In this document: one piece after another, positions 6,045 to 28,897 of the stretch
Layout of the letters: each line of letters begins with the position of its first letter
Position numbering within the stretch: position 1 is the stretch's first letter
The notes under the pieces: model-generated
Told to the model about the DNA's origin: nothing
Databases searched by the model: none
The model's input: only the letters and a program-made list of their open reading frames with translations
Assembly: GCA_021443335.1 (NCBI GenBank)
Contig: JABUUE010000011.1
Span: forward strand, 1 to 34,029
Direction of reading: 5' to 3'
DNA length: 34,029 nt
From: Bacteroidaceae bacterium
Lineage (GTDB): Bacteria > Bacteroidota > Bacteroidia > Bacteroidales > Bacteroidaceae
Made by a program: the position numbers and the translations under genes

Positions 6045-6095
6045 TAATGACTGCAGACTAATGACTGCAGACTAATGACTGCTGAGTAATGACTT
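6045..6095. repeat. 14-bp tandem repeat TAATGACTGCAGAC, about 3.6 units
   Basis: taatgactgcagac taatgactgcagac taatgactgctgag taatgactt. Confidence 0.9.
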
Positions 6096-6978: not shown

Positions 6979-7110
6979 ATCGTTGCATCTTCCTATGAAA
7001 CTCGTTGTTTGTTTCTATGATGTTTGTTGCCTGTTTCTATGATACTCAGTGCCTGTTTCTATGATACTCAGTGCCTGTTTCTATGATACTCGTTGCATTT
7101 CCCTTAGGAT
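6979..7110. repeat. array of six 22-bp-period direct repeats, consensus about CTCGTTGCCTGTTTCTATGATA
   Basis: Units: atcgttgcatcttcctatgaaa / ctcgttgtttgtttctatgatg / tttgttgcctgtttctatgata / ctcagtgcctgtttctatgata x2 / ctcgttgcatttcccttaggat. Confidence 0.9.
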
Positions 7111-7115
7111 TACGC

Positions 7116-7220
7116 TTCAAAAAATGCATTTTTTGAACCTTTTCTCATAGAGAAACGAGTCGTTTCCCTATAGCTTTTAAATTGTTTGCCATAGAGAGAT
7201 TATTAGCTTCTCCCTATGGC
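7116..7220. repeat. three consecutive palindromes/hairpins (7116-7137, 7147-7171, 7188-7220)
   Basis: TTCAAAAAATG|CATTTTTTGAA perfect; ATAGAGAAACGA-g-TCGTTTCCCTAT; GCCATAGAGAGA-...-TCTCCCTATGGC. Confidence 0.8.
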
Positions 7221-16517: not shown

Positions 16518-16583
16518 TCTTGTAACTTCTTGAACTTCTTGAACTCCTTGAACTCCTTGAACTCCTTGAACTCCTTGAACTCC
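16518..16583. repeat. 9-bp tandem repeat TCCTTGAAC, 7 units, directly upstream of dnaG
   Basis: tcttgtaac ttcttgaac x2, tccttgaac x4, tcc. Confidence 0.9.
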
Positions 16584-16590
16584 CTGATTC

Positions 16591-18519
16591 ATGATTGACA
16601 GAATAACCATAGCGAAGATAATGGATGCCGCAGACATAGTGGATGTGGTGTCTGACTTTGTGTCGTTGAAGAAATCTGGTGCAAACTACAAGGGATTGTG
16701 CCCTTTTCATAACGATCGCACACCTTCGTTTATGGTGTCGCCAGCAAAAGGTTACTGCAAGTGTTTCTCGTGTGGCAAAGGCGGAAATGCCGTAGGCTTC
16801 ATTATGGAGCATGAGCAGTTGACATATCCTGAGGCATTGAAATATCTTGCACGCAAGTACAATATCGAGGTGCAGGAGAGGGAATTGACTGATGACGAGC
16901 GCAGGGCGCAGACAGAACGCGAGAGCCTTTTTATCGTCAATGAATGGGCGGCGAATTATTTTGCGGACAATCTGCACAAAAGCTCTGATGGTGTTTCCAT
17001 AGGATTACCTTATTTCCGCAGTCGTGGTTTTCGGGACGACATCATAGAGAGGTTCAAACTCGGCTTTGACCTTGGAGACCGTAAGGCTTTGGCACAGAAG
17101 GCTGTTGCGGAAGGTTACAAGGGCGAATATCTCGAAAAGACGGGTATATGCTATAAGACTGACCGTGGCGAACTGATAGACAGGTTTGCTGGTCGCGTAA
17201 TCTTCCCTTGGTTCGGACAGAGTGGAAAGATTGTCGGCTTTGGAGGTCGTCTGCTTGATGCCAGGACAAAAGGCGTGGCGCAGAAATATGTAAACTCTCC
17301 AGACAGTGAAATTTACCATAAGGATTCAGAACTGTATGGTCTGTTCCAAGCCAAGAGAGCCATCGCCAAGGAGAACCATGTGTATATGGTCGAGGGCTAT
17401 ACCGATGTCATTTCCATGCATCAATGTGGCATAGAGAATGTTGTTGCCAACTCGGGAACAGCGTTGTCTGTTAAGCAGATAGGCATACTCCACCGTCTGA
17501 CACCGAATATAACATTGCTTTATGACGGCGATGAGGCTGGCGTTCATGCGGCAATGAGAGGAACTGACATGCTCCTTTCGCATGGCATGAATATCAAGGT
17601 GCTTTTCCTTCCTGATGGTGATGACCCCGACAGCTTCGCACGCAAGCATAGTGCGGAGGAGTTTCGCGATTATGTGGAACGCAACCAGACAGATTTCATA
17701 GACTTCAAATGTCAGGTGTTGCTTCAAGGTGTAACAGACCCGATGAAGCGTGCAGAGGCGATAGACAATGTTCTTCTCAGTGTGTCGTTGATAAAGGACC
17801 AGATAAAGCGCTCCATGTATGTTACTCTGTGTGTAGAGAAATTAGGCGTTAAGGAGGAAACGATAGTGCGCCGTGTTAACAAGTTTATCCATGACGAGAT
17901 AGAGCAAAGAAAAAAAAGGAAAGAAAGGGAAAAAGTCTTGGTTCAGGAACAACCACCGATAGTGCCCGAGACAGCTTCTGCACCAGTAGAGAATGTCCCG
18001 ACGAAGTTGTCCAAACTTCAAGAGATAGAGACGCTTATTATTCAGATGGTTGTCAGACACGGCGAGATGCTTATGCCTACGGAACCGCAAGTTACATTAG
18101 CACAACTCGTGGCCTCTAACCTTGCAGAAGATGAATTGCAATTCTCAATACCTATATATAATAAGATATTGGAGGATGCTGTGGAGAAGTCGGGTGAAGA
18201 TGATTTTGTGGCGGAGAAGTTCTTTATGCGCCATGAAGACTATGATATTAATAATGCCGCCACTCGATTGATTATGGATCAAGCCAATGTGAATGTGAAG
18301 CCGGATGAGATGGATGAGACGAAACTTGTTGCGCAAACTGTAAAGAATCTTAATCATTTGTTCATTGATTTGCGCTTGCAGATGATTTCTGAGCAGATAG
18401 TGGAAGCAAGACAGCGTTTGGCAACAGCTACTGCCGACGAGATGGCTACGGCGATGAGCCACTATAAGCAGTTGAAGGAACTTCAGAAGACGGTGGCGCA
18501 GATGGCAGGAAGGAATTAA
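16591..18519 (+). CDS. dnaG: DNA primase
   Basis: CPFHNDRTPSFMVSPAKGYCKCFSCGKGGN zinc motif; VEGYTDVISMHQCGIENVVANSGTAL; LLYDGDEAG TOPRIM. Confidence 0.96.
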   Translation: MIDRITIAKIMDAADIVDVVSDFVSLKKSGANYKGLCPFHNDRTPSFMVSPAKGYCKCFSCGKGGNAVGFIMEHEQLTYPEALKYLARKYNIEVQERELTDDERRAQTERESLFIVNEWAANYFADNLHKSSDGVSIGLPYFRSRGFRDDIIERFKLGFDLGDRKALAQKAVAEGYKGEYLEKTGICYKTDRGELIDRFAGRVIFPWFGQSGKIVGFGGRLLDARTKGVAQKYVNSPDSEIYHKDSELYGLFQAKRAIAKENHVYMVEGYTDVISMHQCGIENVVANSGTALSVKQIGILHRLTPNITLLYDGDEAGVHAAMRGTDMLLSHGMNIKVLFLPDGDDPDSFARKHSAEEFRDYVERNQTDFIDFKCQVLLQGVTDPMKRAEAIDNVLLSVSLIKDQIKRSMYVTLCVEKLGVKEETIVRRVNKFIHDEIEQRKKRKEREKVLVQEQPPIVPETASAPVENVPTKLSKLQEIETLIIQMVVRHGEMLMPTEPQVTLAQLVASNLAEDELQFSIPIYNKILEDAVEKSGEDDFVAEKFFMRHEDYDINNAATRLIMDQANVNVKPDEMDETKLVAQTVKNLNHLFIDLRLQMISEQIVEARQRLATATADEMATAMSHYKQLKELQKTVAQMAGRN

Positions 18520-26130: not shown

Positions 26131-26739
26131 ATGACATTCACACAGACCGCTAACGAAGTCTTTAACAAAGCAATCAACGATTATCATATAAAGGATGACA
26201 TAGAGACTCCGATAAGCAATCCCTACTCTGAAGGCACGATAGAAAACCGTCTGTATCTGAAAAACTGGATAGATACGGTGCAGTGGCATTTTGAGGATAT
26301 TATACGCGACCCGAACATTGACCCAGTGGAGGCTTTGGTGCTAAAACGCCGTATCGACAAGAGCAACCAGGACCGCACCGACCTCGTGGAGCAGATAGAC
26401 TCCTATTTCCTTGAGCTATACGCTGATGTTAAGGTCGTTCCCGATGCACAGATAAATACGGAAAGTCCTGCGTGGGCTGTTGACCGTCTGTCTATCCTCG
26501 CCCTGAAGATTTATCACATGAAGGAGCAGGTGGAGCGCGAGGGCGTATCGCAAGAGCATGTCCAGAAGTGCCAGGCAAAGCTGAATGTGCTGCTCGAACA
26601 GCAGGTTGACCTATCAACAGCCATCGACCAGCTCTTGGCAGACATAGCCGCTGGCAGAAAATACATGAAGGTTTACCGCCAGATGAAGATGTACAACGAC
26701 CCAACGACCAATCCTGTGCTGTATAAGAACAATGGATAG
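26131..26739 (+). CDS. DUF4254-like protein
   Basis: NPYSEGTIENRLYLKNWIDTVQWHFEDIIRDPNIDP; paired with a GT9 gene. Confidence 0.8.
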   Translation: MTFTQTANEVFNKAINDYHIKDDIETPISNPYSEGTIENRLYLKNWIDTVQWHFEDIIRDPNIDPVEALVLKRRIDKSNQDRTDLVEQIDSYFLELYADVKVVPDAQINTESPAWAVDRLSILALKIYHMKEQVEREGVSQEHVQKCQAKLNVLLEQQVDLSTAIDQLLADIAAGRKYMKVYRQMKMYNDPTTNPVLYKNNG

Positions 26740-27802
26740 TATCCTCATCATACGGCTATCAGCCCTTGGCGATGTTGCGATGTTAGTGCCTGTAGTGAAG
26801 GCGTTAGCATCGCAACATCCTGATTTAAGGATTACCGTTCTTTCCGCAAAGTTCCTGCGCCCTCTTTTTGAGGATATCTCCGACAATGTGAGCTTCGTGC
26901 CGTTCGACAAGAAAGGGGAGCATAGGGGACTAAAGGGACTTTACCGTCTCTACAGGCAATTGAGGAAGGAAGGCTTTACCTATGTTGCTGACTGCCACGA
27001 CGTGTTGCGTACGAAGGTTCTGCGCCTTTTGTTTGCTTTTGACAACATCTTGTCTGTCTTCGGCAGAGGAGCAAAGACTGCCGTGGCGCATATCAATAAG
27101 CATCGTGCAGGCAAGCGCGCTTTGGTGCGTGAGAAGAACAAGGTGCTTGTCCAGCAGCCCACCTCATTCGAGAATTATGCGGAGACGATAGGGCAGTATC
27201 TGAATCTACACCTCTCCCTAACCCTACCCCCAAAGCGGGGAGGGGACTATAAAGTTAGTCTCAAGAACTGCTTACAAGAAAGTGAATCAAACAGTAAAGC
27301 ATCTATCGGCATCGCTCCTTTTGCCGCTCACGAGGGTAAGATTTATCCGTTAGAGAAGAGCTTTGAAGTTCTTCGACTGCTGCTCGACCGCGGCTGTAAG
27401 TTATATCTTTTCGGGGCTGGCGAGAAGGAACTTGCCGTGTTCCGCGATTGGCGCGAACGACTTGGCGGCTGCGAGAATGTCTTGCTTCCACCTTATGGCG
27501 AGGGAGGACTGAAGGCGGAGCTGCGGCTGATGGCGCAGTTGGACTGCATGATTACCATGGACAGCGGCAATATGCACCTCGCCTCCATCGCAGGTACGCG
27601 GGTGGTAAGCGTCTGGGGTGCAACGCATCCCCTTGCCGGTTTTCTCGGCTGGCAGCAGAACGTCGCCGACTGTGTGCAAATAGATATGCCCTGCCGCCCC
27701 TGCAGCATCTACGGCAACAAGCCCTGTCGCTTTGGCAATTATCCTTGCCTTAACCGCATTACACCCGAAGACATAGTGAACAAAGTCTTGGGCGAGACTT
27801 AG
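26732..27802 (+). CDS. glycosyltransferase family 9 (heptosyltransferase-like)
   Basis: ILIIRLSALGDVAMLVPVVKAL; MITMDSGNMHLASIAGTRVVSVWGATHP; 8-nt overlap with upstream gene. Confidence 0.9.
   Translation: MDSILIIRLSALGDVAMLVPVVKALASQHPDLRITVLSAKFLRPLFEDISDNVSFVPFDKKGEHRGLKGLYRLYRQLRKEGFTYVADCHDVLRTKVLRLLFAFDNILSVFGRGAKTAVAHINKHRAGKRALVREKNKVLVQQPTSFENYAETIGQYLNLHLSLTLPPKRGGDYKVSLKNCLQESESNSKASIGIAPFAAHEGKIYPLEKSFEVLRLLLDRGCKLYLFGAGEKELAVFRDWRERLGGCENVLLPPYGEGGLKAELRLMAQLDCMITMDSGNMHLASIAGTRVVSVWGATHPLAGFLGWQQNVADCVQIDMPCRPCSIYGNKPCRFGNYPCLNRITPEDIVNKVLGET
27209..27246. repeat. C/G-run palindromic element copy B, inserted in-frame in the GT9 gene
   Basis: cacctctccctaaccctacccccaaagcggggaggggac. 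Confidence 0.75.
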
Positions 27803-27840
27803 GGGGAGTGTGATATGAGTTGCTATGAGTTGCTATGATA

Positions 27841-27950
27841 CTTGAGATCTGTATCCCTGATACTCGAAGCGAGTTTCTATGATACTCGAAGCGAGTTTCT
27901 ATGATACTCGAAGCGAGTTTCTATGACACTCAAATCATCTTCCTTAGAGA
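27841..27950. repeat. second 22-bp-period array, consensus CTCGAAGCGAGTTTCTATGATA, five units
   Basis: cttgagatctgtatccctgata / ctcgaagcgagtttctatgata x2 / ctcgaagcgagtttctatgaca / ctcaaatcatcttccttagaga. Confidence 0.9.
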
Positions 27951-28062
27951 ATCGATTTAGAACTCCCCGTGAAACATATCAAAACTCTATGACAAAATTT
28001 TTTTTTCTCCCTGCGTTTTGACCCAAATGTCATAGGAAAATCGAGCGAACCGCTGTGAAACA

Positions 28063-28102
28063 TTTTTAACCCAAACGTCCCAATGAACTTTTTGGCTTTA
28101 AG
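28063..28102. repeat. about 40-bp hairpin element copy 1
   Basis: tttttaacccaaacgtcccaatgaactttttggctttaag. Confidence 0.6.
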
Positions 28103-28228: not shown

Positions 28229-28897
28229 ATGATAAAAGTAACAGCTGTACACACTGCAATGGCTTTGGTAGAGCCATTGACAAAGATTTTTCGTGAGTAT
28301 CTACCAGAAGTGAAACTAAACCACATAGCAGACGACAGCCTCATTCAGGAGGTTATTGCCAACAATGAGGTTACGCCAGCCGTGAAACGCCGACTGTTGG
28401 CTTATTATTTGACAGCCGCTGACAGTGGGGCTGATGTGGTCTTCAACTGTTGTTCTTCTGTTGGTGACATTGCTGATTTGGGCAACACCATAGCACCGAT
28501 TCCTGTCTTCCGTATAGACTATCCTATGGCGGTGCAGGCAGTAAACTCGGCAAAGCGCATAGCCGTTGTGTCAACACTCAGCACCACTCTTGACCCAACA
28601 CGCCGACTGTTGGAGCGCGCTGCCCGTGAGGCGGGTAAGGATGTGGAGCTGATAGACGCTCTCGCTGACGGTGCCTTTGCTGCCGGACAGAGTGGCGACG
28701 GAGCGACACACGACCGTCTTATTCAGGAAGCGGCGGAAAAGGTTGCCGATAAGGTAGATCTCTTTGTCCTTGCCCAAGGCTCAATGGCGCGCATGGAGCA
28801 GAAACTTTCGGAGATAACCGGCAAGCCTGTGCTTTCAAGTCCGGTGTCTGGAGTTAAGGGGTTGAGAGAGTTTTTACAGGCGCAGGGAAAGATTTAA
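28229..28897 (+). CDS. aspartate/glutamate racemase superfamily protein
   Basis: DVVFNCCSSVGDIADLG and LFVLAQGSMARM regions carry paired active-site positions of the Asp/Glu/hydantoin racemase family (the second Cys is not evident). Confidence 0.75.
   Translation: MIKVTAVHTAMALVEPLTKIFREYLPEVKLNHIADDSLIQEVIANNEVTPAVKRRLLAYYLTAADSGADVVFNCCSSVGDIADLGNTIAPIPVFRIDYPMAVQAVNSAKRIAVVSTLSTTLDPTRRLLERAAREAGKDVELIDALADGAFAAGQSGDGATHDRLIQEAAEKVADKVDLFVLAQGSMARMEQKLSEITGKPVLSSPVSGVKGLREFLQAQGKI

Follow-up and report, generated by a model that had tools for sequence, protein, structure and literature searches.

The stretch of 34,029 nucleotides analysed here, which will be referred to as the window, corresponds to C22:1-34029 in a genome of 2.91 Mb and 125 contigs (G000). 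Within the window a tandem array, locus 2, begins 12 bp after the stop of a gene encoding a family-9 glycosyltransferase (26732-27802), and an Asp/Glu-racemase-like gene (28229-28897) is located downstream. The nearest named relatives of a neighbouring gene derive from 'Bacteroidaceae bacterium' MAGs of horse faeces (55-59 % identity); size and content of the genome suggest a Prevotella-like genus. Orthologues of the glycosyltransferase are present in two horse-gut MAGs, in which the genes downstream differ, so that an empty site is not definable. The glycosyltransferase gene itself carries a C/G-rich palindromic repeat as an in-frame insertion (27205-27250). In-frame repeat insertions were seen in this gene in three species, apparently at matching places; AATGCGT heptamers were detected in L252 (3474-3526 and 3750-3781), and AATTCAG/AATGCAG heptamers in L253 (3463-3571 and 3787-3857; protein NAECRMQNSE-like). 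Elsewhere in the window, a 9-bp tandem repeat (CTTGAACTC, 7.6 copies, 16519-16587) lies just before an ORF at 16591.

The initial annotation had described locus 2 as a 22-bp array of five units at 27841-27950. The array and its period were recovered, TRF reporting 3.4 copies of a 22-bp unit with 98 % match (27858-27931), but the count changed to three near-identical and three decayed units. Units start at 27815, 27837, 27859, 27881, 27903 and 27925; those at 27859, 27881 and 27903 are identical (GATACTCGAAGCGAGTTTCTAT, together 27859-27924), and those at 27815, 27837 and 27925 are decayed. The sister array proposed at locus 1 was also found by TRF (6980-7096, 5.3 copies). Both arrays do finish in TTCC(C)TTAG; what had been taken for decay of the final unit is, however, TTCCTTAG, the boundary to a conserved module. 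The palindrome noticed at locus 2 likewise exists but extends past CTCG-AAG-CGAG to GATACTC-GAAGC-GAGTTTC. Allowing up to 3 mismatches, TTTCTATGATACTCG occurs 11 times in the window compared to 0.82 expected, a number reached in 0/100 shuffles. The module flanking locus 1 differs from that at locus 2 (Table 1).

Table 1. Coordinates of the array and module features in the window
Feature	Position	Strand	Evidence
Locus 1 lattice array, five units, GATACTCAGTGCCTGTTTCTAT type	6997..7106	+	TRF, sequence, phasing
Perfect palindrome TTCAAAAAATGCATTTTTTGAA, module beside locus 1	7116..7137	.	sequence; common to C114 array locus
Locus 2 lattice array, six 22-bp units	27815..27946	+	sequence, TRF, phasing
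Single dyad unit GATACTC - GAAGC - GAGTTTC, then 3-bp spacer TAT	27859..27877	.	sequence, information profile (164 units)
Near-palindromic pivot TTCCTTAGAGAA, array/module boundary	27940..27951	.	sequence; perfect TTCCTAAGGAA in C72 copy
Conserved right-hand module, ~130 bp	27940..28069	+	genome search, alignment
GTGAAACAT, first conserved copy within the module	27969..27977	+	sequence, alignment
GTGAAACAT, second conserved copy, module right end	28055..28063	+	sequence, alignment

Searching the genome with the pattern GATACTC-N15-GATACTC and phasing the matches yielded 34 loci with 164 units. The shared unit is GATACTC-n5-(GAG/CTG)TNTC-n3, that is two inverted half-sites (GANAC / GTNTC) per 22 bp, and the variable parts are the 5-bp and 3-bp spacers together with the GAG/CTG alternation. 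At least 34 arrays have a common lattice, and a constant part, different from the one first proposed, reaches well beyond the two loci. The half originally named as constant, TTTCTATGATA, is limited to the 'TAT' subfamily, one of the n3 subfamilies (TAT, GCC, GGC, CCT and ACC); elsewhere in the genome its place is taken by TTTCGCCGATAC, TGTCCCTGATAC or TTTCACCGATAC. Over the 164 units of the 34 loci the information profile is mirror-symmetric, with values of 1.50, 1.33, 0.42, 1.67, 1.39, 0.92 and 0.68 at positions 1-7, values of 1.55, 0.94, 0.68, 1.77, 1.39, 0.73 and 0.53 at positions 19-13, and 0.05-0.33 in the spacers (8-12 and 20-22). As a check on circularity, only the N15 block, which is unconstrained by the search pattern, was scored: among 33 distinct N15 blocks, drawn from 22 loci, G15, T16 and C19 were present in 33/33, whereas about half had GA and about half CT at positions 13-14.

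Analysis of Watson-Crick covariation revealed pairing above shuffles at no half-site pair and pairing below expectation at 6/14 and 7/13; at pair 3/17, T-T was the most frequent combination. This lack of compensatory pairing, together with T-T at 3/17, argues that the symmetric bases are recognised in the DNA duplex and do not form a hairpin stem under selection. Spacers were more alike within a locus (2.70/5) than between loci (1.51/5), which supports the earlier proposal of local expansion from a locus-specific unit. Many arrays of G000 have no module, their spacers being nearly random and their half-sites invariant. The arrays lie in unrelated flanks, for the most part outside divergent gene pairs, next to unrelated housekeeping and sugar-utilisation genes, and no neighbouring gene is common to them, which argues against regulation of one pathway.

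At a threshold of E <= 1e-6, the module adjoining locus 2 was found at about 26 distinct places in the genome, and some of these places, several in number, are near the end of a contig. The copies have sharp ends, mostly 72-97 % mutual identity and unrelated flanks. The 22-bp register continues through the module, where units (for example CTCATAGRGAAACGAGTCAAAA) have the opposite orientation, and the modules of G000 carry GTGAAACAT as direct repeats in place of terminal inverted repeats; no target-site duplication was seen by eye. The Y1 transposase TnpA-REP (PF01797), the first candidate to consider for a recombinase, gave 0 matches in G000 (89.9 % complete) and was positive in 5/14 control genomes. 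The motif GTGAAACA in the module (27969-27977 and 28055-28063) equals half of the bacterial parS site, TGTTTCACGTGAAACA; coincidence is probable. Searching 398 genomes of the genus for the module in sister species returned weak partial matches at most, the best in G112. The modules are intergenic, adjoin gene 3' ends and avoid divergent gaps: where both neighbours were known (19 modules), 7 gaps were convergent, 12 tandem and 0 divergent, compared to 107/513 divergent gaps in the background and 1/15 for the elements of G256.

Relative to shuffles, folding was strong in the module copies C30 (z -6.4) and C88 (z -10.4) and no better in C22b (z -0.1), C57 (-0.2) and C73 (0.1). Rfam returned no family at gathering score, sub-threshold matches being likely due to chance, and a known RNA family was excluded on this basis. 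In L063 (C88, 711-813), L054 (C30, 336-455) and L055 (C39), a whole 22-bp unit repeats the adjacent unit perfectly but in inverted orientation; the same unit stands in direct orientation in the C42 and C73 copies. The inverted neighbours are possibly a trace of hairpin-templated copying.

The distribution of the arrays was analysed by scanning contigs C48 and C22 end to end with a PWM, which produced 0 matches in shuffled sequence. Arrays were located at 5.3, 28.8, 55.4, 73.3, 95.8 and 123.3 kb of C48 and at 7.0, 27.9, 56.0 and 76.4 kb of C22, the last 52 kb of which are free of arrays. The resulting intervals of 23.4 +/- 3.7 kb (CV 0.16) are more even than uniform placement (P = 5e-6, post hoc), and also more even than hard-core exclusion models of 13 kb (P = 0.002) and 17 kb (P = 0.018). 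For all multi-array contigs of G000 the CV was 0.37 (P = 6e-4), and 0.44 when modules were included (P = 7e-4). G256 behaved similarly (18 intervals, CV 0.37, P = 5e-5), with 0 intervals below 13 kb compared to 8.9 expected; the effect was weaker in G332 (P = 0.04), and the contig sizes of both genomes were partly assumed in these tests. All spacing tests are post hoc, comprise 8-18 intervals each and are conditional on the number of arrays per contig. Heptamer arrays of 21 bp in G000 were randomly placed (CV 0.87, P = 0.51).

In ~1.1 Mb from three species of the genus, 22 bp was the commonest or near-commonest TRF period (14/96, 20/78 and 10/26 arrays), the stretches of G061 and G000, though not those of G016, being partly picked around known arrays; 260 kb of other genera contained 0 22-bp arrays. 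Near-exact two-copy duplications showed a 22-bp peak as well, some with unrelated units (L127, L128, L148), and no such peak was present in a mixed set of 17 stretches from other members of the genus. With <=2 mismatches allowed, CTATGA cores spaced by 22 bp were detected in 126/398 genus genomes, often as a species-specific unit, with about 1/10 of genomes estimated to match by chance; the reversed-pattern control was confounded, AGTATC being the complement of GATACT, and in this way pointed to the species with GATACT. GATACT at 22-bp spacing exceeded its reversed control in 10/11 other species picked for it, with a maximum of 132 matches in G256, and was absent (0) from G016 and from three other genera. 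Dyad symmetry across the genus was modest (mean z 0.99 for 22-bp and 1.15 for 21-bp arrays), and the dyad rule is therefore firmly claimed for G000 only. DNA matching 27810-28075 was not found in phages or plasmids, and the exact patterns had 0 matches in viral contigs and 0 in GTDB contigs; a phage or plasmid origin was rejected on the absence of matches in phages, plasmids and viral contigs. A description of 22-bp arrays in this group was not found in the literature searched.

G256 harbours 60 bipartite elements of ~128 bp with terminal inverted repeats, each with a centre of 17-18 bp surrounded by six GATACT cores, of which three are inverted and three direct. Inner spacers of the two arms of one element had a similarity of 0.49 compared to 0.62 for random arms, the opposite of what a selected hairpin would produce. 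In these elements (L285-L299) the inner spacers usually differ in type, GTTTAATGTCGA versus RRAGCA..TCGA, and the outer spacers agree. Arrays of G332 (e.g. L259, L280) carry neighbouring spacers in both orientations (GAAGGCC / GGCCTTC, GAAGGTC / GACCTTC), separated by constant GGATGATACTTTG cores, and G348 (L151, 10602-10708) contains 11-bp units, CTATGAGATGC, with half the usual period and one unit per helical turn. A second class of minisatellites with 7-bp units (TAAGTAC, TAATGAC) and 14/21-bp superperiods is randomly spaced; it was observed in the window at 234-295 and 6045-6094 and in L120:7827-7918, L122:9129-9186 and L123:4908-4966. TAACTGA heptamer repeats of Beggiatoaceae may be compared with this class (PMC4679880).

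Taken together, invariant half-sites, near-random spacers, dyad symmetry that lacks stem covariation, whole-turn spacing and over-even distribution fit operators for a dimeric protein acting at the scale of the chromosome. We tentatively interpret the arrays as 22-bp lattice elements that are spread over the whole chromosome, are confined to the genus and serve as putative platforms for a dimeric, probably chromosome-organising protein, a reading we consider plausible although it falls somewhat short of probable. Each unit would be a putative operator for a sequence-specific dimeric DNA-binding protein; the 22-bp period would place successive dimers on the same DNA face, so that 3-8 of them could bind cooperatively. 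The even spacing might point to a role of the whole chromosome's scale, such as nucleoid organisation, a supercoil-domain boundary or the marking of segregation or division. Tandem duplication would add and homogenise units, and the motif would drift between species together with its protein. Recruitment of gyrase may be considered as a variant of this interpretation: the E. coli enzyme binds BIME-2, and its motif is an extended one in which G/C variation is phased at 10 bp (PMC6379681). Bendability alone, however, would not require invariant half-sites. Several observations count against organising sites: other genus members have few or no arrays; the motif is quick to change between species, more so than is usual for organising sites with an essential function; the spacers of G256 are highly conserved too, as in copy-and-paste elements; over-even spacing was not seen in G042, whose ~9 arrays lie 32-307 kb apart; and G000 contains a close pair, an array plus a module 3.7 kb apart on C81.

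The main rival is a MITE family with target immunity: a non-autonomous element with an internal minisatellite whose transposase would bind the ends and sub-terminal 22-bp sites, evenness resulting from target immunity as in Tn7/Mu-like elements. The end sites of Tn7 and Mu measure ~22 bp, and dispersed copies, unrelated flanks and sharp-ended modules all speak for such an element, as do the 60 elements of ~128 bp with terminal inverted repeats in G256. BrickBuilt of Porphyromonas gingivalis is a precedent, being a MITE with a 23-bp minisatellite (PMC4596501). Target immunity would account for dispersal and exclusion but less well for the regularity, which exceeds that of a 13-kb exclusion zone alone (P = 0.002), and it does not account for position-specific conservation, since neutral decay of copies would not yield module-less G000 arrays with invariant half-sites and random spacers. 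Moreover, neither a Y1 transposase nor, by eye, a target-site duplication was found, and similar DNA is lacking in phages, plasmids and viral contigs. We regard this explanation as possible, though rather unlikely.

Even less can be said for functionless minisatellites, arising in this genus by replication slippage or duplication that favours steps of 22 bp (two helical turns) and owing their motif to descent and drift. The prominence of the 22-bp period in three species, its peak among near-exact two-copy duplications, some of unrelated units, and the homogeneity within loci are in line with this process. Slippage, however, accounts for period and homogenisation only; it leaves unexplained the invariant half-sites amid random spacers, their sharing by unlinked loci and species, and the even spacing, and the 17 mixed genus stretches lacked the duplication peak. 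It thus appears unlikely. A role at the RNA level, the array and module being transcribed behind genes and their hairpins stopping transcription or stabilising mRNA, is very improbable. The position next to gene 3' ends and the strong folding of C30 and C88 would suit it, but it is weakened by the fact that only some module copies fold, C22b, C57 and C73 doing no better than shuffles. Half-sites without covariation, inner spacers of G256 less alike than those of random arms (0.49 vs 0.62), and an even 23-kb spacing, unexpected for terminators, also oppose it.

If the arrays are indeed binding platforms, they would represent a first candidate chromosome-domain marker of Bacteroidales, differing between species; we know of no such marker comparable to MatP, SlmA or Noc in this order. 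A bolder version of the platform interpretation, which we consider doubtful, would see a new chromosome-organising system of one Bacteroidales genus in which each species has its own dyad lattice about every 23 kb, motif and protein co-evolving so fast that neighbouring species barely share sequence, yet share period, dyad geometry and spacing. The 22-bp lattice offers ready bait DNA for a protein search. Should the elements prove mobile, target immunity would have left in their even spacing a genomic trace of unusual clarity. In addition, the arrays may account for some assembly breaks, given that contigs end at several of the module copies.

Among known systems, iterons and the end sites of Tn7/Mu transposases are also ~22-bp repeated sites in helical phase. 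The lattices differ in being chromosomal and multi-copy, and no replication protein or transposase was recognised nearby. With the BrickBuilt MITE, which has a 23-nt period and about 19 copies per genome (PMC4596501), they share the order, an intergenic position and tandem repeats of near-equal period between non-repeated segments, and the about 26 module copies are dispersed, sharp-ended and set in unrelated flanks as in a MITE. Compared by description, the leader and tail of BrickBuilt carry terminal inverted repeats of IS5 type, whereas the lattice elements have a module in 22-bp register, a dyad unit, many module-less arrays and even spacing. REP and BIME elements are likewise short palindromic units that form mosaic clusters between genes, next to 3' ends, BIME-2 of E. 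coli being bound by gyrase (PMC6379681), and the modules resemble REPs in lying between genes, at 3' ends and outside divergent gaps. However, a REP/RAYT system is rejected because no Y1 transposase was found in the 89.9 % complete genome and stem covariation is absent, and the lattice elements have a fixed 22-bp lattice; as E. coli REPs lack clear clustering or periodicity (PMC12306157), the even spacing sets the lattice elements further apart. MatP-matS and SlmA offer another parallel, with scattered dyad sites, tens per genome (23 matS and 50 SlmA sites; PMC3116907), that are not bound to particular genes. Their sites are palindromes of 12-13 bp, whereas the lattices consist of 3-8 tandem dyads of species-specific sequence with a putative protein. 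As in these systems, the dyad is fixed at unlinked loci, and its distribution is non-random in both G000 and G256.
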